Shown here: positions 19,377 through 60,996 of the stretch, piece after piece
How positions within the stretch are numbered: position 1 is the stretch's first letter
Layout: the number at the start of each line of letters is the position of its first letter
Source: Caulobacter zeae
GTDB taxonomy: Bacteria; Pseudomonadota; Alphaproteobacteria; Caulobacterales; Caulobacteraceae
Reading direction: 5' to 3'
Assembly: GCF_002858925.1 (NCBI RefSeq)
Contig: NZ_PJRS01000022.1
Coordinates: forward strand, 186,001 to 250,000
DNA length: 64,000 bases
Program-made: the position numbers and the translations under genes
The notes under the pieces: model-generated
The model's database searches: none
What the model saw: the letters and a program-made list of their open reading frames with translations, nothing else
Told to the model about the DNA's origin: nothing

Positions 19377-19453
19377 GGCCCGGTAGCTCAGCAGGATAGA
19401 GCAGCGCTTTCCTAAAGCGAAGGTCAGGGGTTCGAGTCCCTTCCGGGCCGCCA
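19377..19453 (+). tRNA. tRNA-Arg (CCT), CCA encoded
   Basis: Folds as a cloverleaf: acceptor GGCCCGG/CCGGGCC, D stem GCTC/GAGC, anticodon stem with loop TTCCTAA giving anticodon CCT, T arm with TTCGAGT, discriminator G and an encoded CCA. The first anticodon-stem pair is a G-A mismatch. Prophage genes begin directly downstream, so the 3' end is the likely integration target. Confidence 0.95.
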
Positions 19454-19461
19454 TGCGGGGC

Positions 19462-23684: not shown

Positions 23685-23699
23685 GCGAACCGGGTTCGC
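23685..23699. repeat. 15-bp prophage palindrome, copy 1
   Basis: GCGAAC-CGG-GTTCGC, exact. This copy is intergenic, between the endolysin and a holin candidate. Confidence 0.85.
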
Positions 23700-29236: not shown

Positions 29237-29664
29237 GGCGGTGCGCTCCACAGGATCTGGATGTCGGAAGGTTCCGGACGGGCAATGCGGCAAAGCCCGT
29301 CCACGTTCGAGAAGGCAAGGACGTGGTTCTGATCCATCACCACGCCCAGGGCGGGCCAGTCCTCGCCGCTGGGCAAAGCGACGATGTCGCTGGGCAAGGC
29401 GTAGGCCCAGCCGAGACGCATGAGGCCCAGATCGTCCACGGCCGCTTCGATCGAGGCGAACCCGGTTCGCCTGATCGCGCGACGGGCGCCAAGGGCGGTG
29501 CTGTAGAGGCCGCCGCGTAGTAGGCGCGGCGCATAGCCCATGCCAAGCGCCGCGAAGGCGGCCAGGCGCACGCAATCGTAATGGCCCCAGGCGAAGGCGT
29601 GACCCTCGAACGCGGCGCGCGTGGCCTCGGCGACCTGAACGCGGAGATCCAGAGGATGGGTCAC
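29218..29664 (-). CDS. NlpC/P60-like tail peptidase (DUF6950 type)
   Basis: A 148-residue protein. The N-terminal AWGHYDCVRLAAFAALG supplies a candidate catalytic Cys. A later DIVALP, LGVVMDQNHVLAF gives the downstream strands and His of the papain-like fold. Tail peptidases of this type cut peptidoglycan during DNA entry and occupy this exact slot ahead of the tail tip gene. The gene contains one copy of the 15-bp prophage palindrome at 29456-29470. Confidence 0.8.
   Translation of the reverse strand: MTHPLDLRVQVAEATRAAFEGHAFAWGHYDCVRLAAFAALGMGYAPRLLRGGLYSTALGARRAIRRTGFASIEAAVDDLGLMRLGWAYALPSDIVALPSGEDWPALGVVMDQNHVLAFSNVDGLCRIARPEPSDIQILWSAPPCLKQP
29456..29470. repeat. 15-bp prophage palindrome, copy 2
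   Basis: GCGAAC-CCG-GTTCGC, exact and extended to 17 bases by flanking G and C. Inside the NlpC-like gene, 5771 bases from copy 1. Confidence 0.85.
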
Positions 29665-34050: not shown

Positions 34051-34448
34051 CCCGCCATCGGCTCCCCCGGCTCTTCCTCCTCCGGGGCTTGCCGCGAAGC
34101 CCAGAGGACCTCCAGGGCGGTCGTCGCGTGGTCGAGCAGCCCCTGGATCCCGCGCTCGTCGATATCGAGGCGAACCAGGTTCGTCGCGTCCTTGCTGGTC
34201 ATGCCGGCCCCCAGGAGGCCCTGGTAGATCGGCGCCCGCACGTCCTCGGCGTGGAACTCGACGCCGGCGGCCAGCGCCTCGATGCCCGAGTATTTCGAGA
34301 GGGCGAAAACGGCCCGAGCCAGCCGGCGCAGCACTTCGCCGATGCCCGTTCCACAGGCTTTCTCGATGCGGCGGATCTCGCCGAGGCGGATACGGAAGTC
34401 CCGCTCCTCCCCGGCGAAATCGGCGGTGCAGTGACCCGAGCCGTCCAT
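34032..34448 (-). CDS. Tail assembly chaperone (GTA TAC family)
   Basis: A 138-residue protein whose ATG overlaps the tail tube stop. The N-terminal ADFAGEERDFRIRLGEIRRI and EKACGTGIGEVLRRLA match the phage/gene-transfer-agent TAC family. The acidic C-terminus (EEEEPGEPMAGESPAT) ends just after the G-run that probably promotes a frameshift into the extension. The short form would be the abundant product. It is expected to coat the tape measure during tail assembly. Confidence 0.85.
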   Translation of the reverse strand: MDGSGHCTADFAGEERDFRIRLGEIRRIEKACGTGIGEVLRRLARAVFALSKYSGIEALAAGVEFHAEDVRAPIYQGLLGAGMTSKDATNLVRLDIDERGIQGLLDHATTALEVLWASRQAPEEEEPGEPMAGESPAT

Positions 34449-35742: not shown

Positions 35743-35955
35743 TCAGCCCTCGCGAACCGGGTTCGCCTGGATCAGGCTGACGGGCTGCTGGCCGCGCCGG
35801 GGCGTGGCGATCCGATGGGCCTTGCCAGCGGCGATCGCCGCCGTCGCGCAAGGCGTCGTGACCAGCAGGATATGCCCGGGAAGGTAGACGGTGGTTCGCC
35901 GGCGATCCTTGGGCGGCGTCCAGTCGAAGCGGGCGGTGAACTCGACCCACGGCAT
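35743..35955 (-). CDS. Small basic protein of unknown function
   Basis: A 70-residue protein (MPWVEFTARFDWTPPKDRR, then VYLPGHILLVTTPCA) one base from the head-closure gene. Similar tiny proteins occur in the connector region of many alphaproteobacterial phages. Its last codons read through one 15-bp prophage palindrome (35752-35766, encoding ANPVR). No function known. Confidence 0.65.
   Translation of the reverse strand: MPWVEFTARFDWTPPKDRRRTTVYLPGHILLVTTPCATAAIAAGKAHRIATPRRGQQPVSLIQANPVREG
35752..35766. repeat. 15-bp prophage palindrome, copy 3
   Basis: GCGAAC-CGG-GTTCGC, exact, in the last codons of a small connector-region gene, 6296 bases from copy 2. Confidence 0.85.
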
Positions 35956-40080: not shown

Positions 40081-41861
40081 CAGACATCCACCACGCCGCC
40101 GGTGATCGATTTGTCCTCGGGCTCCTCATGGAAGGCCAGGACGCAGCCCATGACCGCAGCCACGATGCCGTCGATCTTCTCGCGCGACTTCTTTTTCGCC
40201 GGAGCGAAGTTCATGTTTTCGTCGAAGCGGACGACGGTGTTTTTCGCCATCCAGCGCAGGACGGGGTTGCCCCCGTGGTCCATCTCGCCGGCGTACACCA
40301 GGCGCTCGAAGTGCTTGGTGCCTTCGCCGAGCGAGGGGATGCCCTGGCGGATCTCAACGAACTTGTCGGGATCCACGCCGTCGCGCTGCAGGTCGGTGAC
40401 CAGCTTGCGGGCGTTCCAAGGGTCGAAGCCTATTAGCTCAACGTCGTAGTCGCCAAGCGCTTCCTGGATCGCCAGCATGACGACGTTCTGGTCGACGTAG
40501 TCGCCGTCCGTGGTCTCAAGCGCCTTGGCGGCGACGAAGCGGTCATACGGGACGCGGGCGTCGCGAACCCGGTTCGCCATGCTCTCGGCCGGAACCCAGA
40601 AACGACAGATCAGCTTCCACCGCTCGCCCGGCTTCTCCGGCGGGAAGGTCAGCACCAGGGCGGTGATGTCCTGCGTCGACGAAACGTCGATGGTCAGGAA
40701 ACACCGCCGGCCGCGCAGTTCCTTGGGGAACCTCTTCCAGGCCGCCTTGTCCTTGGCGCAGGCGTCCCATCGCTTGATGTTCAGCCAGCTGACGAGGCTG
40801 TCGACCCACTGGTTGAGGTGGTAGCGCCGGAAGTGCGCCTCGGCCCGTGGGTTGTCCTTGGCCAGGGCCGCCTCACGGCGAAGGAAGGCGATCGTCGGCG
40901 ACAGGCCCAGCGACGGGTTAGCCCCCGGCCAGTTCTTTTCGTCGAACGGGTCGGCCTCCGGGTCGGCCGCGAAGATCACGACCAGCGTGGTCGGATCGTC
41001 GATCCGGCCGTCCAGGATCCCCTGGCTCTCCTCCCACAGGCTGTATCCGACGACCTTGTCCTTCAGGCCGGCGGTCGAGGCGTAAAGCTCGATGGGCTGA
41101 AGGCGGGCGCCGGTGCCCTGACGAAGCGTCGTCTCTAGCTCCCGGCTCTCCCATTCGTGCATCTCGTCGCCGACGATGACCGTCGGCGAGCGCCCGTGCT
41201 TGCCCTCGGCCTTGCCGGTGAGCAGTTCGAACACCGCACGCAATTTCGGGATGAACAACGACTTCTTGAAGCCGTGAACGTCCTTGGCCAGGGGCGGCTT
41301 TTTCTTGTCGAGCCGCTCGCCGAAGATCATCGCCTTCATCTTGTCGAAGACGATTTTCCCCTGCTTCTCGTCGCGGGCGAACGCGAAGCCCTGGCCCGCC
41401 ATCGTGCCGTCGAGCACGAAGAACAGCAGGGCCAGGGCCGACAGGAACTCGCTCTTGCCGTTCTTGCGCGGCACCCAGAGCATGAGCCGGCGGTAGAGCC
41501 GGACGTGGATGACCGTGGGCTGGCCGGTGAGCGCGTCCTTGACCTCGGCCGGGATCTTCCAGCCGACCAGCAGGCGAACGATAAGCTCCTGCCAGAGCAC
41601 CAGGCGGAACGGAGTTCCGGCGAAACGGTCCTCGGTGAGGGTGAAGATCGTCGGCCAGAGGTCTACCGCGCTCTGGGCCTTGGCGTAGTCGAACCACGCG
41701 CCGGGAACGGCGGCGGCTCGCTTCCACTGTGTGACGAAGCCGGCATAGGTCGGATCGTCCTGGACGGCCTTCAGCCAGTCGGGCAGCGGCCACAGGCCCT
41801 CGCCGTGGCCAGCCTGCATCGCCGCCGACGAGACGTCGGCCGGCGCGCTATCGGCGCTCAT
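40080..41861 (-). CDS. Terminase large subunit
   Basis: A 593-residue packaging motor from ATG 41861. The ATPase has a Walker A variant at 131-137 (PRKNGKS), Walker B PTVIVGDEMHEW, and the C-motif region YASTAG. The nuclease half shows FLTIDVSSTQD and LIGFDPWNA, the usual acidic residues. It belongs to the HK97/Terminase_1 (YmfN-like) class, normally cos-packaging. An internal 15-bp palindrome lies at 40563-40577. A longer in-frame start would overlap the small subunit and is unlikely. Confidence 0.94.
   Translation of the reverse strand: MSADSAPADVSSAAMQAGHGEGLWPLPDWLKAVQDDPTYAGFVTQWKRAAAVPGAWFDYAKAQSAVDLWPTIFTLTEDRFAGTPFRLVLWQELIVRLLVGWKIPAEVKDALTGQPTVIHVRLYRRLMLWVPRKNGKSEFLSALALLFFVLDGTMAGQGFAFARDEKQGKIVFDKMKAMIFGERLDKKKPPLAKDVHGFKKSLFIPKLRAVFELLTGKAEGKHGRSPTVIVGDEMHEWESRELETTLRQGTGARLQPIELYASTAGLKDKVVGYSLWEESQGILDGRIDDPTTLVVIFAADPEADPFDEKNWPGANPSLGLSPTIAFLRREAALAKDNPRAEAHFRRYHLNQWVDSLVSWLNIKRWDACAKDKAAWKRFPKELRGRRCFLTIDVSSTQDITALVLTFPPEKPGERWKLICRFWVPAESMANRVRDARVPYDRFVAAKALETTDGDYVDQNVVMLAIQEALGDYDVELIGFDPWNARKLVTDLQRDGVDPDKFVEIRQGIPSLGEGTKHFERLVYAGEMDHGGNPVLRWMAKNTVVRFDENMNFAPAKKKSREKIDGIVAAVMGCVLAFHEEPEDKSITGGVVDV
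40563..40577. repeat. 15-bp prophage palindrome, copy 4
   Basis: GCGAAC-CCG-GTTCGC, exact, within the terminase large subunit gene, 4811 bases from copy 3. Confidence 0.85.
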
Positions 41862-45783: not shown

Positions 45784-47582
45784 TAGGATTGCCCTCCTGT
45801 GTTGAAGCCGGCGCTACTCGCCGGGGCCACGAGGCGAACCCGGTTCGCCGCCGTGAAATCGGTGGAATTGGTCGACCAGGCCTGTTCAGCCAGGCCGCCG
45901 AAGAAGCGGGCCGCTGCGTCGCCTTCCAACTGGAAGGGTCGCGTCCCGCCGGCGAAGGCCCGCGCCCGCATCGGCGGTCCACGAAGATCCCGGCGAACGG
46001 CCAGGACGACGTGCGACTGGCCGCTGGCGCGCCACGGCGGAGCCGCAGGATCCAGCGCCGGCGCATCGGGATTGACCCTGCCCCAGCGATCCCCCAGGGC
46101 GACGCCGGCGAAGGTCGACAGGCGCGGCGCCACCACGGCGCCGGCGTCCATCTCCTCGGCCCAGGCGTTGGTCAGCAGGTGCCAACCGTCCTGGATGTCG
46201 ATCGCGACAATCAGCACGTCGGGTCGGCGATCGGTCGACAGCGGCGTCAGGAACGCCACCTTGCCATCGGTGTCGCCGACCAGGTTGGTGAAGCGGTCGG
46301 CCTCGAAAGGCAGGACCGCCAGGGCCTCGACGGGATCGCCGTCGGCCTTCAGCAGCGGGACCAGAAGCGCAGGGCCGTTGCGGCCGTCACCCAGCGGCGC
46401 GGCCGGATGAACCCGAAAGCGGGTCAGCACGTCGGTACTGCCGCCGGGGGTGCTGGACAGTCCCCGCGCCTCGAACCACTTCGCCGAGGCCTTCACCCAC
46501 GGCGATCCGGCCGAGGCCCACAGCCGAGCGGCGAACTCCCGCTGGCTCAAACCCTCGTCTACCCCTTCGGCCGCCGGCGCCCCCCCGCCTTGAGGCGGCG
46601 ACGGGCGGCGAGCCCGATCCTGGGGCGCGCGATCCGGCGCAGAGCGCGGTTGGCCCTCTCCCCACAACAGGGCGCGGTCGACCTGGCGCTCCAGCTGGGC
46701 CGCCGTCATGGCGTCGGGAACGTGCGCCATGCCGGCGTCGATCAGCGAAGCCCGTGCGTAGTCGCGGTCGATTTCGCCGCCGGCGACGAGACAACCGATC
46801 GAGCACGCGCTTCGATAAACGGTGGTGTCGCGTTGGCCCTTGGTCGCGCCGAGGATGGTCCTGACCGCGCCGTCCAGGGCGGCCTCGCCATAGGGGCTTG
46901 CTCGACCAGCCGCCGGCGCACGGGGTTTCACCGGTTGGCGCGGGGCCACCGGCTCAGGGGGCGGGCAGACCAGATCCAGCAGCCAGGCCGGAGCTGGAGC
47001 GAAGTCGATCTCCAGCGGCGAGCGGCCTGGCGTCCAGGCGTAGAGCCGGCCTGGGGGTATGCCCTCCTCGGGCTTGCCGGGGTGAACCGACGGCGGCGCG
47101 ACGATGTAGCCGCCGTCGCCGCGCACGTCGATCTTGGCCCCGATCCGCTCTTGGCTGCGCTTGCTCATGTTGCGCACCGGGAAGTCTGGGTTCCAGGCGA
47201 AGCACAGGTGACGGCCCCGGCCCGTCGATTGCTGGACCGTCGCGGGCAGCGCGCCGTGCTCAGCTTCCAGGCGCGCGATCGCGGCCTCGGCCTCCGGCCC
47301 ATCCAGGTCCAACACCCAGAAGCCGGAGACTGCGCCGGTGGCGATCCCGATGTTGCTGTCAGGCCGCGCGCGGACCGGCCGCCGGTCCTTGGCGGCCGGC
47401 TTCAGGTCGAGTGGGCAGTTGCCGCGCCACCAGTCGCCGACCACGGCCGGCATGGACGACGCGCCTTTGAAGCCCGTCGTCCGGGCGTAGGGCTCTTTCG
47501 TCCGGGGGCGCAGCGGGAACACCGCAACGCCGCGCCGGCCATAGGCCAGGGCGTGGTCGATCAGGCGAACCGGGTTCGTCAT
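45783..47582 (-). CDS. Prim-Pol type DNA primase/polymerase
   Basis: A 599-residue protein. Residues 1-190 are the bifunctional primase-polymerase domain: ALAYGRRGVAVFPLRPRTKEP, the metal motif FWVLDLDG (DxD), GRGRHLCF (sxH), and KIDVRGDGGYIVAPPSVHPG. A Pro-rich hinge near 230-330 leads to a C-terminal TOPRIM-like domain (VLIVAIDIQDGWHLL; WASAGSPW, FRVHPAAPLGDG). Its stop overlaps the helicase GTG. ATG 47582 lies in a 15-bp palindrome variant (47565-47579). Confidence 0.9.
   Translation of the reverse strand: MTNPVRLIDHALAYGRRGVAVFPLRPRTKEPYARTTGFKGASSMPAVVGDWWRGNCPLDLKPAAKDRRPVRARPDSNIGIATGAVSGFWVLDLDGPEAEAAIARLEAEHGALPATVQQSTGRGRHLCFAWNPDFPVRNMSKRSQERIGAKIDVRGDGGYIVAPPSVHPGKPEEGIPPGRLYAWTPGRSPLEIDFAPAPAWLLDLVCPPPEPVAPRQPVKPRAPAAGRASPYGEAALDGAVRTILGATKGQRDTTVYRSACSIGCLVAGGEIDRDYARASLIDAGMAHVPDAMTAAQLERQVDRALLWGEGQPRSAPDRAPQDRARRPSPPQGGGAPAAEGVDEGLSQREFAARLWASAGSPWVKASAKWFEARGLSSTPGGSTDVLTRFRVHPAAPLGDGRNGPALLVPLLKADGDPVEALAVLPFEADRFTNLVGDTDGKVAFLTPLSTDRRPDVLIVAIDIQDGWHLLTNAWAEEMDAGAVVAPRLSTFAGVALGDRWGRVNPDAPALDPAAPPWRASGQSHVVLAVRRDLRGPPMRARAFAGGTRPFQLEGDAAARFFGGLAEQAWSTNSTDFTAANRVRLVAPASSAGFNTGGQS
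45834..45848. repeat. 15-bp prophage palindrome, copy 5
   Basis: GCGAAC-CCG-GTTCGC, exact and extended to 17 bases, near the 3' end of the primase gene, 5271 bases from copy 4. Confidence 0.85.
47565..47579. repeat. 15-bp prophage palindrome, one mismatch
   Basis: GCGAAC-CGG-GTTCGT, one mismatch in the last position, at the 5' end of the primase gene. Confidence 0.7.
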
Positions 47583-49379: not shown

Positions 49380-49388
49380 AGTGAGCTT

Positions 49389-49428
49389 GAATGCTGCATT
49401 AATGCTGTTCGCGCAAGTGCATTCATGC
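49389..49428. promoter_or_regulatory. Operator region between Cro-like gene and repressor
   Basis: Contains GAATGC, the perfect ten-base palindrome GCATTAATGC (49396-49405) and GCATTCATGC (49419-49428), about 23 bases apart. The same GCATTAATGC occurs again at 50766-50775. This is the layout of a phage repressor/Cro switch. Confidence 0.75.
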
Positions 49429-49469
49429 TGCTACCTCGCACAGCATTCCCGCTGCATGGTCCGCCGCGC

Positions 49470-50144
49470 ATGGACGCGCCGCAAAAAATCCGGGAATGGC
49501 TGGAAGAGATCATCCACAAGACAGGATGGTCGGCCGCGCATTGGGCGTCCGAAGCTGACGTAGCCGCGTCTACGGTTCAGCGGGCACTGAAGCCCGAGTA
49601 CCCCTTTGTTACGTCCAGTAGAACGCTTTCCAAGCTTGCCGCCGCCGCCGGCGTTTCGCCGCCCGACCTTGTCGATCCCGCGCCCAACGCAAAGCCCGCG
49701 ACGTTCCTTGAGATCCGCTACGAAGTCGGCGCCGGCATGTGGCGGCGAGTGGATGACGTTCAAGAATCATACGGGTCTGGCCCCGTAATGGCCGACCCGA
49801 CCTTCGCCGGCTTTCCCCAGTGGCTTGAGCGGGTAGTCTCCGACAGCATGGACCTGGAGTACCCGGTGGGGACGCTCCTTCACGTGGTCGATGCGATCCC
49901 CATCCACTACTCGATCCGCCACGGCGACCATGTAGTGATCGAGCGTAAGCAGATGGGCGGATCGATGGTCGAGCGGACGGTCAAGGAAGTCGTCGTCACG
50001 CCAAAGGGCGGCATTCAGTTCTGGGGGCGCTCGCGGAACCCCAAATGGAACCAGGCCCTGCCGATGAATGGCGATGGTAGCGACGAGACAGAAGAGGTGT
50101 CGATCGCCGCGCTCGTGCTGGGAAGTTACCGCCCACGCAGGTGA
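49470..50144 (+). CDS. S24-family phage repressor (CI-like)
   Basis: A 224-residue protein. The N-terminal HTH includes IIHKTGWSAAHWASEADVA and STVQRALK. A linker leads to a LexA-like peptidase: a candidate cleavage pair Ala88-Gly89 in EVGAGMW, Ser126 in VVSDSMDLEYPVG and Lys172 in RTVKEVVV, the right spacing for a Ser-Lys dyad. It is thus probably inactivated by RecA after DNA damage. ATG 49470 lacks a ribosome site; ATG 49425, in the operator, adds 15 residues. A hairpin terminator follows. Confidence 0.88.
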   Translation: MDAPQKIREWLEEIIHKTGWSAAHWASEADVAASTVQRALKPEYPFVTSSRTLSKLAAAAGVSPPDLVDPAPNAKPATFLEIRYEVGAGMWRRVDDVQESYGSGPVMADPTFAGFPQWLERVVSDSMDLEYPVGTLLHVVDAIPIHYSIRHGDHVVIERKQMGGSMVERTVKEVVVTPKGGIQFWGRSRNPKWNQALPMNGDGSDETEEVSIAALVLGSYRPRR

Positions 50145-50734: not shown

Positions 50735-50776
50735 AATGCAGCATAAATGCTGTTGCTCCGACGCAGCATTAATGCT
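50735..50776. promoter_or_regulatory. Second repressor operator region
   Basis: AGCATAAATGCT (50740-50751) and AGCATTAATGCT (50765-50776) are 25 bases apart centre to centre and share the core of the operator at 49396. They lie ahead of the rightward early operon, so the repressor probably controls both directions. Confidence 0.75.
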
Positions 50777-50810
50777 TTTTTGCACCCGTAACCAATCGGG
50801 GAGCGCTTCA

Positions 50811-51131: not shown

Positions 51132-51286
51132 TGCGCCCGGTCCCGAAAGCACTGCTACGCGCCCTCATGACCGGCCGCGTTATCCTCGCTGCCGAGCCGG
51201 CCAAGGGCGCTCGGCTGTCGGAGGAAACCGTCAAACGGGCAGTGCCCGCAGGCTCTACGCCTCGCCCTCCGGAGACGCGCTCGTGA
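51128..51286 (+). CDS. Small basic phage protein (52 residues)
   Basis: Starts MMRPVPKALLRALMTGR with an ATGA overlap to the previous gene. Contains RLSEETVKRAVPAG, a possible helical binding segment. It overlaps the end of the opposing gene by about 30 bases. Function unknown. Confidence 0.5.
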   Translation: MMRPVPKALLRALMTGRVILAAEPAKGARLSEETVKRAVPAGSTPRPPETRS

Positions 51287-51614
51287 GCGCCGCCTTCGCC
51301 GCATCGGCCAGTGCCGCAAGCCCCTCCCAGTCGAGCAGAAACGTCGCTGTGTGGTCGCGGATGTCGACCGCCAGCCGGCCAGGCGCGCCCTGCTCCGGAG
51401 CCGAAACAACGATCCGCTCGACGAGCCCCGCGAAGCCGGGGCGATCGGGCCGCCGCTCGACGATGGAAACGAGGCGCTGGGCCAAGGTTAGTGCCGCGAC
51501 GTCGTCGATGAGCATCACCGTGGGGTCCTCTTCGGTACCCACCCAAACCGCTACCCGACCGTCTTCCATTCGCTGCACGGCGGGTGTTCCCGCCACTTGC
51601 ACGACTACGCCCAT
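51255..51614 (-). CDS. Small minus-strand phage protein
   Basis: A 119-residue protein from ATG 51614 with an excellent ribosome site (GAGGAGG, eight bases ahead). It is beta-rich at the start (MGVVVQVAGTPAVQRMEDG) with ALTLAQRLVSIVE and LDWEGLAALADAAKAAL helices. It is the only minus-strand gene inside the rightward operon, which may mark it as an inserted or antisense-regulated gene. No function known. Confidence 0.6.
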   Translation of the reverse strand: MGVVVQVAGTPAVQRMEDGRVAVWVGTEEDPTVMLIDDVAALTLAQRLVSIVERRPDRPGFAGLVERIVVSAPEQGAPGRLAVDIRDHTATFLLDWEGLAALADAAKAALTSASPEGEA

Positions 51615-52140: not shown

Positions 52141-54048
52141 ATGGACATTCAACTCGCCTTCCAGAACGCCGACGTCCTGCGCGCGATCATCGCCGCCGGC
52201 CCCGCGATCCAGCTGGGGCAACTGGCCACGGACACCGGCAAGGACCAGTCGAACCTGCGCCGCACCATCGAGCGGATGGAAAAGGCCGGTATCGTCACCC
52301 GCGAACCCGGTTCGCTGACGGTCGTCGCCGACGCCCTGCGCGTCATCGCCGCCGCCGACGTCGCCGAGGGCAAGGCGAACCCGGTTCGTGCGCCCGAAGG
52401 CCACGCCTACCGCTTCCATCGCCAGATCCGCATCGGCGAGTTCAACCCGCGCAAACACTTCGACGAAGAAGCCCTCGACCAGCTGATGCACGACATCGTG
52501 GATCGCGGCCTGAAGACGAACCTGGAAGTCCGCGCCGACGACGCCGAGCCCAATGCCGAGGGCCTGTCGACCAACGAACTGATCGCCGGCGAACGCCGCT
52601 GGCGCGCGATCGGCCGCGCCATCGCCCAGGGCTTCCTGCCCGATGACTTCCCGATCCTGGTCAAGGTCGAGAACGTCTCCGACAGCGAGCACGCCCTAGC
52701 CGCGCTGCTCGAGAACCTTCAGCGCGTCGACCTCAAGCCGCTGGAAGAGGCGGTGGCCTTCGACCGCCTGGTCAACATGAACGGCTGGACGACCGCCCAG
52801 GTCGCCGACCGGGTGAAGAAGACCCAGCGCTTCGTTCAGCTGCGCCTCTCGCTGCTGAAGCTAACCGAGGACCAGAAAGCCCGCCTCGACAAGGGCGAGA
52901 TGACCGTCAAGGACGCGCTCAAGGCGCTCGCCAATCGCCCCGACCCGGTCGAGGCGTCAGCCGTCGACCTGCTGGTCTTGGCTCTGATCTGGACGAATGC
53001 CAACCCAGCGCCGGAGAAGTACCTGAGCTACTGGCGCAAGGGCGAATGCCATATGTCGGCGGCTGATCAGCCGCTGATCGCCTCGCTCATTTCGCGCGGC
53101 ATGGTCGAAACAGAGGAACCGACCAAGTGGGAACCGAAACACCGGATCGGCACCACCTGGAAAGGCTTTCAGGCGCTGGAGCAGCACGCCACTGAGCTGG
53201 TGAAGGCGGACACAACGGACGCCCGCAAGGGCGCGATGATGTCGGTCGACAACAACGCCTACGCCGCTGACAAAGCGGCCAGCACCGAAGCCATGGGGCT
53301 CAACCAATGGCTCGGCAAGCCCATGCTCAATTCGCCGATCGTGCAGAGGCTGATCGACGAGAAGGCCGCCGAGGACCTGGCGCGGGCCGAGGCTGAGCGC
53401 GAACGGCAAGCAGCCATCGCCGTAGCCGAGGCGAAGGCTGACGCAGCCGAGGCCATCGCCAACGGCGTGATCGACCGCATCCGCAAGCTGGAACTCGATG
53501 AGCCCGCGCTGGACCGGAAAGAGTTCGGCGCGGCGTTTAACGCCCTCATTGAGAGCCTGGGCTACCAAGGCCCCTTCCGGCTCGAACTGCGCTCGCCGGG
53601 GCTCGACCGTTTCAACCAACCGCTGCCGGAAACCTACGTCCTGGTCGATGCACGCGGCGAAATGCTTTCCGCCAGCGGCGCGCGGTTCGTTGCCGTCCGT
53701 CGCCTCCAAACTGTGGCGCTGAACTACGCCATGGGTCTCGCTGATGTCTTCAGCGGCCATGACATCATCCGCCCCTCGGACGAGGAGACCGACAGCGAGG
53801 ACGAAGCTGAGGATCCGCAGAACGAGGTCGAGTTTCTAGACGCCATCGCCGCCCGCTTCCGGGACCACTGCGGGGTGGAAGCGGCGCTGGCCATAGACCT
53901 TGCCCACAAGGCGTATGCCCGCAACTTCGAAGGCGAGGAATGCGAGTACGGCGACGAGCGCTTCACCTGGGATCTGCTTGACGCCCAGCTGATCGCCGAC
54001 GGTTGGGCCGAGGACTACCCCGAAACCCTGTCCGCGACGGAGGCCTGA
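52141..54048 (+). CDS. ParB-like DNA-binding protein with winged-helix N-terminus
   Basis: A 635-residue protein, larger than typical chromosomal ParB (about 290). Residues 1-75 are a winged helix (QLATDTGKDQSNLRRTIERM). Residues 95-200 are the ParB/Srx CTP-binding domain: NPRKHFDEEALDQLM, GERRWRA (150-156), ENLQRVDLKPLEEA. Residues 213-240 form the ParB HTH (GWTTAQVADRVKKTQRFVQL). The rest has a coiled coil (about 410-450) and an acidic C-terminal domain. Two prophage palindromes (52301, 52375) lie inside its own first 85 codons. It may be a partition or genome-organising factor, or a transcription regulator. Confidence 0.88.
   Translation: MDIQLAFQNADVLRAIIAAGPAIQLGQLATDTGKDQSNLRRTIERMEKAGIVTREPGSLTVVADALRVIAAADVAEGKANPVRAPEGHAYRFHRQIRIGEFNPRKHFDEEALDQLMHDIVDRGLKTNLEVRADDAEPNAEGLSTNELIAGERRWRAIGRAIAQGFLPDDFPILVKVENVSDSEHALAALLENLQRVDLKPLEEAVAFDRLVNMNGWTTAQVADRVKKTQRFVQLRLSLLKLTEDQKARLDKGEMTVKDALKALANRPDPVEASAVDLLVLALIWTNANPAPEKYLSYWRKGECHMSAADQPLIASLISRGMVETEEPTKWEPKHRIGTTWKGFQALEQHATELVKADTTDARKGAMMSVDNNAYAADKAASTEAMGLNQWLGKPMLNSPIVQRLIDEKAAEDLARAEAERERQAAIAVAEAKADAAEAIANGVIDRIRKLELDEPALDRKEFGAAFNALIESLGYQGPFRLELRSPGLDRFNQPLPETYVLVDARGEMLSASGARFVAVRRLQTVALNYAMGLADVFSGHDIIRPSDEETDSEDEAEDPQNEVEFLDAIAARFRDHCGVEAALAIDLAHKAYARNFEGEECEYGDERFTWDLLDAQLIADGWAEDYPETLSATEA
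52301..52315. repeat. 15-bp prophage palindrome, copy 6
   Basis: GCGAAC-CCG-GTTCGC, exact, in codons 54-58 of the ParB-like gene. Confidence 0.85.
52375..52389. repeat. 15-bp prophage palindrome, one mismatch
   Basis: GCGAAC-CCG-GTTCGT, one mismatch, 74 bases after copy 6 in the ParB-like gene; centre distance is close to seven helical turns. Confidence 0.7.
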
Positions 54049-54246: not shown

Positions 54247-54571
54247 TGCCAGCCTTAAGACCTTGCCGCTCGCCGACGCCGTCCGCCAGGTCTCGGCCTG
54301 GCTGGAAGATTGCGAAGATCTCCTCGGCTTGAAGCCCGACCGCGATCTTCCCCGGCCGCCCTTCCGCCTGGACGAGGCCTGGGTGGTCGTGCGCCTCGCC
54401 GCCGACCAGCTGGCCGTGCCCACAAAGGGCGAGATCCCCCACCAGCTGGTTGGCATCGCCCAGCATCTGGAGACCGAGCGCGGCCCCGACTTCCCTGCCC
54501 GCCGCGCCGTGCTGCTGGAAGCCGCGCGGCAGCTGTCGGCCGGCCAGGATCCTCAGCGAGCCCTGCGATGA
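54236..54571 (+). CDS. Small soluble early protein
   Basis: A 111-residue helical protein (LADAVRQVSAWLEDCEDLLG; HQLVGIAQHLETERGPDF). It overlaps both neighbours, consistent with one operon ending in the integrase. No motif assigned. Confidence 0.6.
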   Translation: MTDNASLKTLPLADAVRQVSAWLEDCEDLLGLKPDRDLPRPPFRLDEAWVVVRLAADQLAVPTKGEIPHQLVGIAQHLETERGPDFPARRAVLLEAARQLSAGQDPQRALR

Positions 54572-54909
54572 CCGCAGATCAGCCCCGCGGCTTCACCTAC
54601 CTTGGTCCGACCACGGAGGCCCGCTTCGCAGCAGCCTTCGCCGTAGCGGCCGTCATCACCGCCAAAGCCGCGAGCGAACTGCTGGGGCTTGACGCCGACA
54701 CTCTGTCCGCGATGACTGACGCCGGAGTGATCAGGGCTGTCCGCAAAGGCCGGGTGCGCTCCTACACCGAGCGGGATCTCCGCACCTACCTGACCGAGGG
54801 CCCTGATGCGCGCGTCGCGTCTGATAGAGAACCGAAGAGTAAGGCCGCGCCCGTCCGACAAGGCAAGGTCGTGCCATTCTCGGCCCGCAAGGGAGCCAAG
54901 GCCCGCTAG
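54568..54909 (+). CDS. Excisionase-like HTH protein
   Basis: A 113-residue protein. ITAKAASELLGLDADTLSAM then AGVIRAVRKGRVRSYTERDL is the excisionase/HTH_17 pattern (winged helix with a wing of basic residues). The tail is Lys/Arg-rich. It overlaps the gene before it and is nine bases ahead of the integrase, the usual place of a recombination directionality factor. Confidence 0.8.
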   Translation: MTADQPRGFTYLGPTTEARFAAAFAVAAVITAKAASELLGLDADTLSAMTDAGVIRAVRKGRVRSYTERDLRTYLTEGPDARVASDREPKSKAAPVRQGKVVPFSARKGAKAR

Positions 54910-54918
54910 GCCTCGTCC

Positions 54919-56082
54919 ATGAGCGTCTATCTGCCGAAGAAGAGCCGCTTCTACGCCTACGACTTCGTGAAGGGCGGGAAACGCTACACCGGATCCACCG
55001 GCGTCGAGACCCTGCGCAAGGCCCAGGAAGTCGAGCGCAAGATCCGCAACGACGTCGCCTTGGGGCTGCACGACACTCAGGCCGGCATGACCCTCGACCA
55101 GGGCGCTGGCCAGTGGTGGTCCGAGGTCGGCCAGCACCTCAACACCGCCGAGGACGCCGAGCGCCGGATCGAGATCCTGCTGCGCCTCATCGGCAAGGAC
55201 ACCCGCCTCGTCGACATCACCACCCGGACGGTGGCCCGCGCGATCGAGAAGCGACGCGGCGAAACCTACGCCAAGGGCAAGGACCGTCCAGGCGCCCCGG
55301 CCAAGCGCTACCCGATCTCCAACGCCACCGTGAACGCCGACATCATCGTCACCCTGCGCCGGATCCTGCGCCGCGCCGAGGTCGTGTGGGAGGTGAAGCC
55401 CCTCCCGGCCATCGACTGGAAGGTGCTGACCTTGAAAGAGCCTGAGCCGGAAATCCGGCTCTACACGGCCAAGCAGCGCGCGGCCTGGGCGGCCGGCTGC
55501 GACGTCGCCTGTCGCTTTCCGTTGAAGATGCTCATCCGCTACGGCCTGCGCCTCAACGAACTGTTTTTCCCGCCTGAAGCCTACCTGCCGGCTGACGAGG
55601 AGTTCGGCCCCAGGCTGGCCATCAACAAGCGCAAGCGCGGCGTCATGCTGCTGCCGCTGCGGGAAGACGACGCGCGCGAGATCGCCGCCCGGGTCAGCCG
55701 CGCCCAGGCCCTCGGCCTGGAAAGCATCTGGTACGAGGAAGAGGCCCAGCCTGCACGCGGGCGTTACAAGGCCAAGAAGCCCGGCGACCCGATCACCTAT
55801 TATGGCCTGTCCCAGCGGCTCAAGAACGGCGCCAAGCGCGCCGGCCTCAAGATGCCGCGTCTGATCCACGGCGCCCGCCACCACGCCGGCACCGTCATGC
55901 TGGGCAAGACGGGGAACCTGAAGCTCACCCAGCAGCTGCTAGGCCATGCCGACATCAAGTCGACCCTGCGCTACGCCCATGCTCTGGAGAGCGACCTGCG
56001 CGCGGCGTTGGAGGACGACGGCATCCGCGCCCCCACTGATCCTCAGTCGGGTAAGCAGGCTCGGGGCGGAAACAGGGGTTAG
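54919..56082 (+). CDS. Tyrosine integrase
   Basis: A 387-residue recombinase. An N-terminal arm domain (KGGKRYTGSTGVETLRKAQ) and SAM-like core-binding domain (about 55-160) lead to the catalytic half, with Arg211 in RYGLRLNELF, His317-x-x-Arg320 in LIHGARHHAG, His343 in LLGHADIKST and Tyr352 in LRYAHAL. All active residues are present. It reads toward the right end of the prophage. Integration into tRNA-Arg is inferred from the junction. Confidence 0.94.
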   Translation: MSVYLPKKSRFYAYDFVKGGKRYTGSTGVETLRKAQEVERKIRNDVALGLHDTQAGMTLDQGAGQWWSEVGQHLNTAEDAERRIEILLRLIGKDTRLVDITTRTVARAIEKRRGETYAKGKDRPGAPAKRYPISNATVNADIIVTLRRILRRAEVVWEVKPLPAIDWKVLTLKEPEPEIRLYTAKQRAAWAAGCDVACRFPLKMLIRYGLRLNELFFPPEAYLPADEEFGPRLAINKRKRGVMLLPLREDDAREIAARVSRAQALGLESIWYEEEAQPARGRYKAKKPGDPITYYGLSQRLKNGAKRAGLKMPRLIHGARHHAGTVMLGKTGNLKLTQQLLGHADIKSTLRYAHALESDLRAALEDDGIRAPTDPQSGKQARGGNRG

Positions 56083-56195
56083 CGCTCTAATGCATGTAGT
56101 CGGCGGATCGAACAGCCGTCGCCACGATCAGCGACCGGCTCGGCCATTGCCGAGAAGAGCCGGTGGACGGGTCTGCTAAGGGTGGTGAGCGGAAG

Positions 56196-56744
56196 TTAGC
56201 GAACTAGCCCTGGCGGCCACGGGATCGGCATCGAGGTATGGCGCTTCGGCAACCAGTCGAGCAAAAAGTCCCAAGCAGGCTGGTTCGAGACAGATGCCAA
56301 ACCTCTGATCGTCTCTGACTGGAGGTGATACGCCTGAACAAGTTCGTCCAGAGACGTTGGAATTCTCTCCAGCCTGACTTTCACCCGCTCGACCCATTCG
56401 CTGATCGGCACATCCTCTCCGGAAGCAGCGAGAAAGTCGAAATCTCGATCGTTCCCCAAATGCCACCCGACGAATGTTGAGCGGAATATTCCTTGATCGG
56501 CAGACGGGTAATTAGCATCGAGCCAAGAGCGAAATTCTAGCACTTCGATCGCGATCACTCCCGTCAGGTTAAAACCCCAAGGATGTCTAATTTCATGCGG
56601 GAAGTATTGCGGCTTGATCGCTCCCTCGCTGGGAACTTCCCAGCCTGGCTGAACCTGGGGCCGCAACTTCCTACGAGAAAGGCCATGCGCTTTTAGGGCG
56701 TCGCTTAGCCCCGCGCGGAAATCCTTGATGTTGTTCGGGGTCAT
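56196..56744 (-). CDS. Accessory protein of unknown function
   Basis: A 182-residue soluble protein from ATG 56744 (weak AGG seven bases ahead). MTPNNIKDFRAGLSDALKAH, then GWEVPSEGAIKPQYFPHEI and SWLDANYPSADQGIFRSTF. GC is lower than in the phage core. No family recognised. It lies past the integrase, so it may be cargo. Confidence 0.6.
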   Translation of the reverse strand: MTPNNIKDFRAGLSDALKAHGLSRRKLRPQVQPGWEVPSEGAIKPQYFPHEIRHPWGFNLTGVIAIEVLEFRSWLDANYPSADQGIFRSTFVGWHLGNDRDFDFLAASGEDVPISEWVERVKVRLERIPTSLDELVQAYHLQSETIRGLASVSNQPAWDFLLDWLPKRHTSMPIPWPPGLVR

Positions 56745-56921
56745 TCGTCGCCTGCAAGCTGCACCGCGACGTTGTGCCAATTTGCGGGGAGTCTGCAACG
56801 GGTCGGGAGCGGGAATTAGCGCCGGCGCTGAACGCGGACATGGCGCCCGTCGCCAACGAGCGGACTATTCTGGCGTCAGCTGGGGGTGGATTGCGGACCC
56901 GTGCCGGTCTAGCGTCGCCTT

Positions 56922-57422
56922 ATGAATAAGCGCTGGATAGTTGTCTTAGCCGTTGTCCTCCTCGGGCTCGCTGCGTCGGCCATCTACGTTCGGTTCTCAC
57001 CGGCTGTGGCCCAGGATGCTTGCCTCGATGGAGGTGGAGCATGGCGGAATGGTGAGTGCATCCGCGAACAAAAGGCCGCGCACTCCGCGGTTCCTGAGGA
57101 CGCAGTCATGCAAGGGGCATTGACGCGAAACGGCTCGCTGGACGGGCGGGCCGCGTTCGATATTGATCTGCCTGACGACTGCAGAATGACCACCAAGGGC
57201 TTCATGGTGGACTATCAGGTGTTCAAGGTCACCTGTGGCAAAGGGGATTACGCCGGGGTCTATGTCGGCAACTTCGGAGATGAGACGGTCCCGAGAAGCC
57301 GGACCCTTCGCACCCAGTTTGGCTGGCCGACCCAAGTACAAGTCTGGAGCAACATCGTTCCAGGTGATCAAGCCCGCGCCGACGCTATCGCCGCATCGGT
57401 GCGGCTAAGAGCGCTGAAATAG
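56922..57422 (+). CDS. Exported or membrane-anchored protein, unknown
   Basis: A 166-residue protein with a signal anchor (WIVVLAVVLLGLAASAIYV). Cys pairs (DACLDGGGAW, GECIREQ; DDCRMT, KVTCGKGDY) suggest two disulphides in the periplasm; the first resembles a short C-x-x-x-G-G-x-W...C loop. No enzymatic motif. Accessory gene. Confidence 0.65.
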   Translation: MNKRWIVVLAVVLLGLAASAIYVRFSPAVAQDACLDGGGAWRNGECIREQKAAHSAVPEDAVMQGALTRNGSLDGRAAFDIDLPDDCRMTTKGFMVDYQVFKVTCGKGDYAGVYVGNFGDETVPRSRTLRTQFGWPTQVQVWSNIVPGDQARADAIAASVRLRALK

Positions 57423-57653
57423 CGGGGCACCTGTGCGATTGTCATCGGACATTCCCGAAGCCGGCTAAGGGTCGGGACGCCATAGCGCGGGATTTCGAGA
57501 TCGTCCGCAGTCACACTGGCAAAAGCGATAGATGAGCTGAGTATTCACTGAACGGTCGGAGTCGACCGCCAGCGCAAAGGGCGCCGCGGGCGCAACTTTA
57601 CCAACTTAACAAACTTTTCAAATTGTCCTACCATGGCCTATCGGAGGCGGGTC

Positions 57654-58412
57654 ATGGCGAATTTGGACAGAGAGGGGCCCGGTAACCCCGGATGGCAGAG
57701 CCGAAAAGTTGACGAAGCGGCCGAGGGTCAACCGACATACGAGGAAAGCGCGCCCCCTGCTGCGCTTAATAAGATAACAAAGCTCGGCATCCAGAGCACG
57801 GAAGCTGTACAAGCTTTACCCAACAAGGACCCGGGCGGCGTAGCAATGCTATTGCATGGCTATAGCATCGCAATCGAACGATCCCGAGCGCTTGGACAAC
57901 CTGTCAACTTCCTTGTGGAAGTTTCCCCTGATGGACTGGTCGCTTTAACTCCCATTGCAGAGGGAACTGTCGCGTCCGAACACGGGGATCCAGAGTCTCG
58001 AGCATCGGATTTTAGCCGATCAGATCCCTTAGCCGCCGCACGCGAGCGTGGTCGGCTTAGGGCCGCAGAAATCCTAGCCGGCGAGGAAATGGTGAGCGCC
58101 GACGTGTTTGCAACGCTTCTCGGCACAACGCGCGTAACGGTGAATACGAAACGTCAGGGTGGACTGCTATTAGGCCTCGACGGTGCCAAGCGTGGCTTTC
58201 GCTTCCCATTATGGCAGCTCGATGCTGATGGCGTGCCTTACGCCCAAATCTCGGCGCTTCACGAACGGCTAGGCGGCCCCTGGGCTGTTTATCGCTTCTT
58301 GATGCAGCCGCACGGCGAACTCGGAGGCTTGACCGGATTGGAGGCGCTAAAGCGGGGTAAAAGCCTAGCAGTTATTGACGCCGCAGAAAGCGTCACAAGA
58401 GGCTCCCATTAG
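57654..58412 (+). CDS. Antitoxin-like protein with Xre/MbcA/ParS-type C-terminus
   Basis: A 252-residue protein from ATG 57654, which has GGAGG six bases ahead; ATG 57633 is less well placed. Residues 135-250 show GEEMVSADVFATLLGTTRVT, FRFPLWQLDADGVPY and LHERLGGPWAVYRFLMQPHG, the pattern of Xre/MbcA/ParS toxin-binding antitoxins. No RES-type toxin gene is beside it. The N-terminal 100 residues are unrelated to the domain (a LLHGYSIAIERSRALGQPV segment). Confidence 0.78.
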   Translation: MANLDREGPGNPGWQSRKVDEAAEGQPTYEESAPPAALNKITKLGIQSTEAVQALPNKDPGGVAMLLHGYSIAIERSRALGQPVNFLVEVSPDGLVALTPIAEGTVASEHGDPESRASDFSRSDPLAAARERGRLRAAEILAGEEMVSADVFATLLGTTRVTVNTKRQGGLLLGLDGAKRGFRFPLWQLDADGVPYAQISALHERLGGPWAVYRFLMQPHGELGGLTGLEALKRGKSLAVIDAAESVTRGSH

Positions 58413-58562
58413 CTCCAAGAGAGTTGCCACCTCGTGCTATCTCCGGGCGCCGAGCCGCTGTTAGGGCGTTGACGTGGAAATCGCTCCGCTCTTAGCTGCG
58501 CCGGCTAACTAGCCAAAGCCACCAAAACTCAACGCCCGCGGCGCTGGGAAGCGCCGCTCTTA

Positions 58563-58967
58563 ACTGGATCCGATACGCGTGTCGCGGTCACCCGCGACGC
58601 GCTCGTCGAGCAAGGCGGTGGCGCGTTCGGCCTGGCGGTGGCCGGCGACACCAGCACCGACTGGTTCGTCGAGGGCCGGCTGGAGCTGATCGGCGGCCAG
58701 GCCGCCGGCGAACGACTGCACCCCTATGCCGCGGTCGGCTTCCGCTCACGTGTCGGCGGCGACGAGGCCCGGGCCTCGGGAACGCTGGTCGGGCTAGCCA
58801 CGCCGTTGTCCGTCACCGGCCTCGACCAGGACGGAACCCTGGCCACGCTCGGCTTCGGCGCGGCCTACGACCTGTCGCGCGGCTTGACCGTGTTCGGCGG
58901 CTACGACGGCGCGTTCGGCGACAACGGCCGCCAGGCGGCGTCGCTGGGCCTGCGCTGGGCGTTCTGA
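58563..58967 (+). pseudogene. Autotransporter beta-barrel fragment
   Basis: Only the C-terminal part of an autotransporter barrel remains: alternating strands from TRVAVTRDALVEQGGGAFGL through RLHPYAAVGFRSRVG to the end SLGLRWAF, with the terminal aromatic residue needed by the barrel assembly machinery. There is no signal peptide or passenger, and the sequence to the left is unrelated, so the 5' part was lost, apparently at the island junction. A short frame from 58638 could be translated but would have no export signal. Confidence 0.78.
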
Positions 58968-58990
58968 CCAACGCTCGCCCCGAACGAAAA

Positions 58991-59020
58991 CAGGGCGCGG
59001 AACCTAGGTTCCGCGCCCTG
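58991..59020. terminator. 30-bp perfect palindrome terminator
   Basis: CAGGGCGCGGAACCT and its exact complement meet with no loop, giving a complete 30-base palindrome between convergent genes. On the minus strand it is followed by TTTT, so it probably ends the S9 peptidase transcript and also blocks read-through from the left. Confidence 0.88.
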
Positions 59021-59046
59021 CTCTCTTCCGGCCTGATCCTCAGGCG

Positions 59047-60996
59047 CTACTGGCCCAGCAGCGTCTTTCGCCAGAACATGATGCTGCTCCAGAAGTAGTA
59101 GTCGGCGTTTTCCTTCTTGCGGAAGACGTGGCCGTCGTTCTTGGCCAGCAGGTGCCAAGCCTCTCCGCCCTTTGCGCGGACGGCGGCGATCATCTGGTCG
59201 GCTTCCGAGGCGGGCACGCGCGGATCCGTGCCGCCGGTGGCCACCAGCAGCGGGATGGTGATCTTGTCGACGCTGGTCAGCGGCGAGATCTTCATCAGCT
59301 GGGCGCGCTGCTTGGGATCGCGCTCGTCGCCGTATTCCACGCGGCGCAGGTCGCGGCGGTAGGACTGGGTGTTCTCCAGGAACGTGACGAAGTTGGAGAT
59401 CGCGACGTAGCAGTTGGCGCCCTTCAGGCGCGGGCTGTAGTGCGTGGCCGAGGCGTAGCACATGTAGCCGCCATAGGAGACGCCGTTGACCGCGAAGCGG
59501 TCGGCGTCCAGGGCCGGCTCCTTGGAGAGGGCGTCGAGGAAGGCGCCGACGTCCTTGACCGAGTCCTCGCGCTTGAACGGCCCGTTGTCGAGATTGACGA
59601 AGCGCTTGCCGTAGCCCGACGAGCCGCGGACGTTGGGGAAGAACAGCGCCACCCCCAGCTCGTTGACCAGGTAGTTGTTCCCGCCGAGGAAGTCGGGACG
59701 GGTCTGGCCTTCGGGACCGCCGTGAATGTCGACGATCAGCGGGCGCTTGCCCGGGAACCTGGCCGGATCAGGCTGGTAGAGGAAGCCCGAAACCGTCTCG
59801 CCGTCGAAGCTCATGATCTCCACGAGGCGCGGCTCGACGTTCCTGGCGGGGTCCAGACCGCCGGTCTCGCTGTGGGTCCACTGGGTGACCTTCAGCGTCT
59901 TGGCGTCGATCGAGAAGGCGTCGCCGGCGACCTTGGCCGAGGACATCGACAGGCCGATGTCGCCCCACGGCGAGATCTCGATGGCCGGGCCGATGCTGTA
60001 GGGGATGACGCCCCCCGGCAGGCCCTCGACGGTGCGCACCGCGCCGCTGGCTAGGTCCATGACCCGCACCCGCGACACGCCCGCCTCGTTGATGGCGTAG
60101 ACCGCGAAGCTTCCGTCGGGGGACAGGGCGAAGTCGGAGACGTCCCAGCGCGCTTCCTTGCTGACGGGAACGAAGGCCTTGGTCTTGGCGTCGAGGCGCC
60201 CCAGGCGCAGGAAGTCGCTGTCCTTGTCCGAGGTCAGCCACACCGAGCCGTCGTGCGCGTAGTGGGGATCGACGAACGAGGCCTTGGCCTTGGGGTCGGT
60301 CAGCGGGGTCATCGCGCCGCCGGCGAGGTCCAGCTCGTAGACCATGGCCTCGTTGATCGACATGCGATTGAGCACCAGGGCCTTTTTGCCGTCGGCTGAG
60401 AAGTCGGCGATGTTCCAGCCGCCGCCGGTGACCTTGGCGACCAGGCGGTCGGTCTTGGGATCGCGCGGGTCGACCACATAGAGGTCCATGTCCGCGCCGT
60501 TGCGGCGCGAGGAGGCGTAGCCGACCTGCTTGCCGTCGGGCGCCCAGGCGCCGAACCAGTTGCGGCTCTTGCCGTCGGTCACCAGGCGCGGGCGGCCGTC
60601 GACCAGCAGGTAGAGCTGGTAGAACTCGTCGCCGCCGACGTCCTTCTGCAACACCAGGGCGTCGCCGGCCGGCGACAGGGCGGCGGCCAGGATCGGCTCG
60701 GCCTCGAAGCTCAGCTGGCGGCGGTCGGCGTCGGGCCCCGCCACAGTGTGCACCTGGTCGGTGCCGCCGAAGCGGGTCTTGATCAGCATCGAGCGGTCGG
60801 CCGCGTTCCAGCCCAGGAAGTTGGCGTGGCGGGCCTGGAGATAGGGCGTGGTCGCCGAGACCAGCTCCTGCGGGATCGGAGGCAGGCCGTCGGCGACGAT
60901 GGCGGCCGGAACGGCGGCGACGGGCGCGTTTTGGGCCATGGCGAGGCCGCCGCTCGCCGCCAGCAGGGCGAGCGTCAGGGTGAGGCGCGAGATCAT
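59047..60996 (-). CDS. S9 prolyl oligopeptidase family serine peptidase
   Basis: A 649-residue exported enzyme. Signal peptide (LTLTLALLAASGGLAMA), then a seven-bladed propeller (about 40-380) and the alpha/beta-hydrolase domain. Catalytic residues are visible: Ser in GVSYGGYM, Asp in GGTDPRVP and His in NDGHVFRK. IVDIHGGPEGQ provides the oxyanion region. The family removes short peptides after Pro or Ala. It shares strand and neighbourhood with a large TonB receptor, so it may process an imported peptide. Confidence 0.93.
   Translation of the reverse strand: MISRLTLTLALLAASGGLAMAQNAPVAAVPAAIVADGLPPIPQELVSATTPYLQARHANFLGWNAADRSMLIKTRFGGTDQVHTVAGPDADRRQLSFEAEPILAAALSPAGDALVLQKDVGGDEFYQLYLLVDGRPRLVTDGKSRNWFGAWAPDGKQVGYASSRRNGADMDLYVVDPRDPKTDRLVAKVTGGGWNIADFSADGKKALVLNRMSINEAMVYELDLAGGAMTPLTDPKAKASFVDPHYAHDGSVWLTSDKDSDFLRLGRLDAKTKAFVPVSKEARWDVSDFALSPDGSFAVYAINEAGVSRVRVMDLASGAVRTVEGLPGGVIPYSIGPAIEISPWGDIGLSMSSAKVAGDAFSIDAKTLKVTQWTHSETGGLDPARNVEPRLVEIMSFDGETVSGFLYQPDPARFPGKRPLIVDIHGGPEGQTRPDFLGGNNYLVNELGVALFFPNVRGSSGYGKRFVNLDNGPFKREDSVKDVGAFLDALSKEPALDADRFAVNGVSYGGYMCYASATHYSPRLKGANCYVAISNFVTFLENTQSYRRDLRRVEYGDERDPKQRAQLMKISPLTSVDKITIPLLVATGGTDPRVPASEADQMIAAVRAKGGEAWHLLAKNDGHVFRKKENADYYFWSSIMFWRKTLLGQ

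Follow-up and report, generated by a model that had tools for sequence, protein, structure and literature searches.

The 64,000-nucleotide stretch of Caulobacter zeae DNA analysed here (contig NZ_PJRS01000022.1, positions 186,001 to 250,000; hereafter the window) contains a prophage with a gene for an orphan ParB-like protein (52141..54048, + strand), an open reading frame (ORF) coding for 635 residues, with an ATG start. Judging from sequence comparison and modelling, we put at roughly 0.6 the probability that this temperate-phage product is a clamp of the ParB type, an orphan without ParA, and that it is loaded at sites scattered along the genome that encodes it. Its ParB helix–turn–helix (HTH) would recognize a 13–15-bp palindrome, RCGAACC-N-GGTTCGY, nine rather evenly placed copies of which lie on the phage; the predicted target DNA is RCGAACCNGGTTCGY. 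Contact with the site, together with nucleotide, would close the clamp as in ParB, KorB and Noc, and the closed clamp would slide off to cover the flanking DNA, as the fold and motifs suggest. Sites some 5 kb apart would let the clamp cover most of the phage genome but not the host chromosome. The clamp would be produced on induction or infection, from a gene run behind CI-type operators. From the co-occurrence, conservation and co-variation described below we strongly infer that the ParB-like protein binds the palindrome. Its most likely task during induction or infection is to organize or mark the DNA of the phage itself; the next candidate is gene control over a long range, for which the clamp would be loaded in the same way.

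A palindrome dispersed over the prophage

At E 1e-30 the protein is matched in 11 of the 390 genomes of the taxonomic family, that of C. zeae included. A profile from these 11 members gave the viral relatives, taken as the best 79 of 382 loci. Of these, 26 were treated as having the same winged helix–turn–helix (wHTH)-ParB architecture, by match start and by eye; L075, L083 and L094 were left out of this set, their N-termini looking like other HTH types. A class-wide profile search was swamped by ordinary chromosomal ParB and was not used for counts.

A search for palindromes in 14 relatives, from which the initiator-like gene had been masked out, found ACGAACC-N-GGTTCGT in 14/14 at up to 2 mismatches, against 8 reached in two shuffled sets. 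The 13-bp form CGAACCNGGTTCG (CGAACC-N-GGTTCG) has 11 exact copies in the 5.39-Mb host genome, nine of them in the 36.5-kb prophage (binomial 1.6e-18), and all nine exact copies of the window fall in the prophage. With one mismatch allowed the window contains 11 copies against 0.33 expected, the largest of 100 shuffles reaching 3. The runner-up perfect palindrome of the prophage has 2 copies against these nine. The exact sites lie at 23686..23698 (intergenic), 29457..29469, 34171..34183, 35753..35765, 40564..40576, 45835..45847 (at the 3′ end of a primase-like gene, where relative L068 has the other version), 47566..47578, 52302..52314 and 52376..52388. The last two are inside the parB-like gene. 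The earlier note, made from the sequence alone, had placed sites inside this gene and suggested that the protein regulates itself through them. Two perfect palindromes are indeed found there, but they are just two of nine spread over the prophage; self-regulation can be at most part of the function, since the site is spread rather evenly over the whole prophage, with 8/9 copies in called genes.

The same palindrome recurs across the phage family. Among 22 full phage records (that of L105 lacks the last 336 bases), the commonest perfect 13-bp palindrome is the CGAACC version (C version) or the CGAACG version (CGAACG-N-CGTTCG; G version) in 16, with 3–9 copies each; none of the 22 has a CGAACA or a CGAACT version. 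The information in the site is limited to ~10 bases on each side of its centre. Across 117 directed pairs of relatives a site could be aligned in 170 cases and was conserved in 80, where random windows would predict 17.8; the pair counts are not independent, the family members being related. The sites are also spaced more evenly than chance, with a combined p of 3.7e-6 to 1.6e-4 over 13 phages in four counting ways (the 16 phages minus L016, L058 and L059, all sites counted) and of 1.5e-5 to 5.6e-4 over all 16, single phages being mostly non-significant. The nearest site is at most 460 bp from the start of the parB-like gene in 15/16 phages, the exception being L105 (3.9 kb); the combined p for this proximity is 3.7e-5 over 15 phages, L016 being left out.

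Site and protein occur together. In a comparison of 50 of the 79 viral loci, exact C-version sites (3–9 each) were found in 13/25 family records, the window prophage and its close relative among them, against 1/25 records with other ParB-like proteins (Fisher 2.9e-4); a reversed-pattern control gave 0 in all 50. The search from site to protein covered, among the matches listed, 38 contigs: all 13 that have at least two listed sites and did not already belong to the family, and 25, mostly longer, with one listed site. A family match was present in 7/13 of the multi-site contigs against 4/25 of the single-site contigs (Fisher 0.024). In other host genomes, the contig that carries the parB-like gene holds most of the C-version sites: 8/8 in G250, 6/6 in G104, 9/11 in G269, 7/10 in G160 and 6/10 in G200; G351 and G117 have totals of 1 and 0. 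For the G version, 7/7 sites of G117 are on the parB-like contig, and the 7 of G351 are distributed over four contigs, two of which hold its parB-like genes; G200, G160, G250 and G104 have totals of 2, 1, 0 and 0. Genome G269 has 9 G-version sites, 8 of them at ~5-kb steps on contig C25. These led a profile search to a diverged 859-residue family member, with one site inside its gene, which a single-sequence search at E 1e-30 did not report. Contigs C5 and C25 of G269 appear as two prophage regions that differ in site version, the first with 9 C-version and the second with 8 G-version sites.

The two versions replace each other in place. In 17/26 cross-version alignments (9 distinct phage pairs) the other perfect version stands at the same position with both arms switched, and the remaining 9 have no site. 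This happens at two positions, one inside the parB-like gene (L017 and L018 against L057, L058 and L059) and the other at the primase-like gene's 3′ end (L015, L016 and L017 against L068). The version also tracks the recognition helix. In the alignment, the counterpart of residue 234 in C. crescentus ParB is N178, which contacts parS (PMC7383237). Leucine or methionine at 234 goes with the C version in 7/7 members; the helix sequence VQQR goes with the G version in 8/9, V/IQQHR with the C version in 14/15, VEQR with the C version in 2/2 and VQDR with the G version in 1/1, six of the version labels in this comparison resting on degenerate or variant sites.

Two other palindromes were considered and rejected as the ParB site. 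The 16-bp GCGGCTGATCAGCCGC (53059–53074, inside the gene) belongs to a class, the 16-bp even palindromes, that reaches just 1 copy in the prophage. The second, GTGACACSSGTGTCAC, is common to many relatives, and all its copies (up to 2 mismatches) are inside the initiator-like gene, in 12/19 loci that have this gene: L024, L025, L026, L064, L065, L071, L074, L076, L078, L079, L080 and L082, with 1–4 each. The initiator-like gene has an HTH_36 domain in the one scanned, and these copies are probably replication iterons; lambda O, with iterons inside its initiator gene, offers a parallel. L067 (record G782) has a second palindrome array at 10689–10956, with four spaced copies of TCCAGACCGGTCTGGA or near-identical sequences.

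Domain architecture and nucleotide pocket

In the protein a winged helix is followed by a ParB domain, an HTH of ParB type and an extended C-terminal part, in agreement with the earlier note, and this layout is seen in the ORF, in Pfam and in the AlphaFold2 model. Pfam places MarR_2 at residues 5–56, ParB_N at 95–194 and HTH_ParB at 197–268. MarR_2 scores 28.2 bits, above its cut-off of 27, and is found in 13/24 family members at E 0.01; PF02195 scores 47 bits (cut-off 26.3) and is found in 24/24. PHROG ParB-like matches cover residues 96–270, and in the Pfam scan (E up to 1) no family has its best stretch past residue 273. The AlphaFold2 model (24 sequences; mean predicted local distance difference test 85.8) has a winged helix at 1–75, the ParB domain, the HTH and then ~365 more residues that are mostly ordered; the arrangement of the domains is uncertain because the predicted template modelling score is 0.42. 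Searched with Foldseek against the PDB, it matches ParB, Spo0J, Noc and KorB structures, including 6t1f, 7nfu, 1vz0 and, for KorB, 8qa9 (E 2e-7). By sequence, Noc is the top PDB match.

On the + strand the N-terminal MarR-type winged helix (residues 1–75, from Pfam and AlphaFold2) occupies 52141..52365. It is followed by the ParB nucleotide-binding domain (residues 88–195; 52402..52725), assigned from Pfam, AlphaFold2 and the fold match, and by the HTH (residues 197–265; 52729..52935), assigned from Pfam and AlphaFold2. The model of the C-terminal part, for which the earlier note had proposed structure prediction, contains a possible second winged helix (residues 274–350; 52960..53190), with a weak match to a MarR structure (Z 6.4, root mean square deviation 3.1, 68 aligned), a long helix that is a probable coiled coil (residues 399–456; 53335..53508), and a small α/β part (residues 459–530) with C-terminal helices (562–625; together 53515..54015). 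Foldseek returned no match to this part at E 0.001, and the Z of 6.4 given by VIA-align for MarR proteins is in a range where chance is possible. Speculatively, the coiled coil and the one or two additional winged helices probably serve for non-specific contact with DNA, for bridging or as a surface for a partner.

Comparison with the prophage of Caulobacter endophyticus (L003) shows how these parts are inherited. The flanking genes on both sides are ~90% identical and the winged-helix codons up to 52343 are 82–100% identical per 60 bases, whereas from ~52404 to the stop codon at 54048 (L003 from about 8258 to 9896) identity is only 22–70%. The winged helix is thus kept while the ParB core and C-terminal part are replaced between prophages otherwise ~90% identical, and the two modules are therefore separately exchangeable. 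Other N- and C-terminal parts were noted by eye: L012 (358–2538, − strand) has a C-terminal extension resembling a Ros/MucR zinc-finger regulator, and L072, L075, L084, L086, L088, L091 and L109 seemingly have XRE-like or other HTH types ahead of the ParB domain.

The ParB fold retains its nucleotide-pocket residues. The C motif GERRWRA (residues 150–156; 52588..52608, + strand) is conserved as GERRWR in 35/35 aligned members; in the P motif ENLQR (residues 191–195; 52711..52725, + strand) N192 and R195 are present in 35/35 and E191 in 34/35. R104 is likewise invariant across the 35. Loss of the pocket residues, which the earlier note had named as grounds for abandoning a cytidine triphosphate (CTP) clamp, is thus not seen in the alignment, the exception being one position taken up below. 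By analogy with related clamps, CTP is the most likely nucleotide.

The prophage, its control and its gene neighbourhood

The parB-like gene sits in a Caulobacter-type prophage that begins at a tRNA-Arg (19377..19453, + strand), the left junction, where homology to two relatives stops at 19455–19460, just past the 3′ end of the tRNA. The IMG/VR record of the prophage is 36,465 bp and by arithmetic matches 19618–56082 of the window. A close relative of the prophage is found in C. endophyticus (G200), of the same genus. No attL/attR direct repeat of at least 16 bases was found between 1–45000 and 55900–60000; one 15-mer looks like chance. Recognizable prophage genes include a terminase, a primase/helicase, a CI-like repressor (49473..50144, + strand, start codon uncertain; a phrog_4 match with an S24 match under the cut-off), an excisionase-like HTH_17 protein (54568..54909, + strand) and a tyrosine integrase (54919..56082, + strand), in keeping with the integrating phage of the earlier note. 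A D12-class adenine methyltransferase is at the left end of the prophage (19618–20481, − strand).

A pattern search for CI-type operators CAGCATTAATGCTG at up to 3 mismatches gave 6 matches in the window (shuffle mean 1.01; 0/100 shuffles reach six), four at 49383..49454 and two at 50739..50777. The latter are upstream of the rightward gene run that holds the parB-like gene; the run starts just past them, and its last genes are xis and int. A called gene on the minus strand (51255–51614), absent from L003, interrupts it. With these operators just upstream of its gene run, the parB-like gene is probably silent in the lysogen, unless transcribed from a promoter of its own, and probably expressed on induction or infection; silence in the lysogen counts against a plain role in lysogen stability.

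The neighbourhood was counted in 37 loci, L075 and L094 included, mostly over ~8 kb on each side. An integrase is downstream of the parB-like gene in 29, on the same strand in 28. Within these stretches the parB-like cluster is the sole gene cluster in all 37 loci. The next most frequent, in 26/37, is a small protein of unknown family encoded 1–4 genes downstream (e.g. L026, 11112–11528), with no Pfam match, which is a possible partner of the ParB-like protein. A DnaN-like clamp occurs in 9/37 loci (three representatives confirmed by Pfam), this phage DNA polymerase III beta clamp being near the parB-like gene in L025, L026, L064, L066, L071, L078, L079, L080 and L082. A GapR-like protein occurs in 5/37 (one representative confirmed by Pfam); the GapR-like DNA-binding gene is directly upstream of the parB-like gene in L016 (7613–7879) and L017 (9709–9978) and is missing there in the window prophage.

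Alternative readings and implications

The strongest rival to dispersed clamp loading for genome coverage is a long-range regulator like KorB or VirB, in which clamps loaded at the sites would slide as far as phage promoters, there to repress or de-silence transcription, possibly that of their own operon too by way of the two internal sites. This is unlikely but deserves real weight, and its odds are not exclusive of those of the preferred explanation, the clamp-loading step being common to both. A site so near the start of the gene in 15/16 phages and the MarR-type winged helix would suit a regulator, as would the 23 of 86 sites in 13 phages that are not fully inside a called gene. The other 63, like 8/9 sites of the window, are inside called genes, however, and the spacing is more even than chance. 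KorB of plasmid RK2 is similarly a ParB-fold CTP clamp on a mobile element, acting from distant operators more than 1 kb away (PMC11790492). By analogy it has several dispersed operators on its own element, the phage having nine sites of different sequence. The phage protein differs in its extra winged helix and C-terminal part, and PF08535 (KorB) scores 12.7 bits, below the cut-off of 22.3. The KorB operator sequence also differs from the phage site. Shigella VirB is described as a ParB-like antisilencer that uses CTP in gene control.

Alternatively, the palindromes may be functional but serve a different protein of phage or host, with the ParB-like gene merely travelling along, which we consider improbable. 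In favour of this, trees fail to single out the HTH, and 6/13 multi-site contigs have no detected family protein. Against this, few copies are found outside prophage contigs in most hosts searched, no other gene cluster is present in all 37 loci within the stretches examined, the site version tracks residue 234 in most members, and the sites themselves led to the new family member in G269.

It is very unlikely that the protein partitions or pairs copies of the phage, once excised or while replicating, without a ParA of its own. The ParB fold, the site near the gene and the dispersed, centromere-like sites would fit such a role. As the earlier note had stated, no ParA is adjacent; moreover, the AAA_31 (ParA) profile has no match in the window prophage and none in 25/25 whole viral records of relatives, some of which are possibly fragments, and no protein with KGGxGK[ST] is present among the called proteins of the 37 loci. 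A search elsewhere in the genome, as that note had advised, finds the chromosomal ParA, with ParB, on contig C6. A ParA-binding motif near the N-terminus is found in 0/35 members, and the host ParB has one (LGRGL). For the chromosomal parS the window has 0 matches, even with 3 mismatches allowed. The absence of both ParA and the ParA-binding motif argues that this is not a classical partition protein, and the downstream integrases and upstream CI-type operators also speak against partition. That the protein is an ordinary orphan ParB annotation beside chance palindromes in GC-rich DNA is scarcely credible, since other perfect palindromes do occur in the region but neither the shuffles, the runner-up palindrome nor the conservation expected by chance approaches the values found.

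Several observations weigh against an orphan clamp that loads at these sites, to which the non-independence of related pairs must be added. At the position aligned with M. xanthus Q52, the catalytic glutamine, 32/35 members have asparagine and 3/35 glutamine; Q52A is described as hydrolysis-deficient (PMC12462528), and the diverged G269 member has GTRR as its C motif. Hydrolysis or ligand may therefore differ, and the nucleotide is not reliably predicted from motifs (PMC12704722). The near-palindrome searches also lift GC-rich palindromes over shuffles (11–12/14 loci; n = 11 in L081 and 8 in L062), so that the shuffles are too lenient and the perfect-palindrome counts are the cleaner test. Six of the 22 full records have neither version as their top palindrome: L063 has a CGCACG version, L064, L074, L079 and L090 have half-degenerate C-version sites, and L060 has none; half-degenerate C-version sites are found in L024 too. 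Of the 63 genic sites, 8, 41 and 14 are in the three codon phases, and 6 of the 8 in the window share one phase; codon use may thus help to create some sites. The six contigs with at least two perfect sites and no detected family protein comprise five of 13–23 kb and one of 37 kb, and in the window host all 4 G-version copies are outside the prophage. L005 and L009 are exceptions to the helix rule. Trees of four protein parts give 4 version changes for the HTH, 5 for the wHTH, 5 for the C-terminal part and 6 for the core; as they fail to discriminate which part tracks the site version, the residue-234 rule is suggestive only.

Among known systems, Noc, related to ParB, has its own nucleation sites distributed around the chromosome (PMC8429893). 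It has an N-terminal amphipathic membrane helix; at the N-terminus of the phage protein the model shows a winged helix, and its sites lie on the phage genome. The Noc NBS sequence differs from the phage site. Chromosomal ParB/Spo0J shares the CTPase domain, the HTH and the motifs GERR and EN..R, and is set apart by the ParA, ParA-binding motif and parS that the phage protein and window lack. Mobile elements encode many orphan ParB-like proteins, whose roles are for the most part still to be defined (PMC12704722). The orphan phage ParB–CTPase fusions of that survey (Kaljevic et al., 2025) are of the same broad class, prophage orphans with extra domains; the text available of it describes neither a MarR-type N-terminal fusion nor a phage site. 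Among the titles and abstract openings listed, it is the closest, the palindrome and a MarR–ParB phage protein being undescribed in them.

The dispersed sites are the likely target to which the clamp of one phage family is directed, and its function is therefore directly testable, in the place of loading, the sliding and the effect on phage DNA. Near-even spacing over the phage genome would point to whole-genome coverage rather than to centromere or promoter use, and the two site versions, with residue 234 as a candidate for specificity, form a natural test set for the evolution of ParB specificity. More tentatively, and at a little under even odds, the clamp and its spaced sites may form a self-recognition system in phages of Caulobacteraceae and others of unknown host, coating the phage's own genome and hardly anything else in the host, with at least two co-evolving site versions keeping the coats of two prophages separate in one cell, as in G269. 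If this is true, it would amount to a phage-made, sequence-addressed nucleoid.

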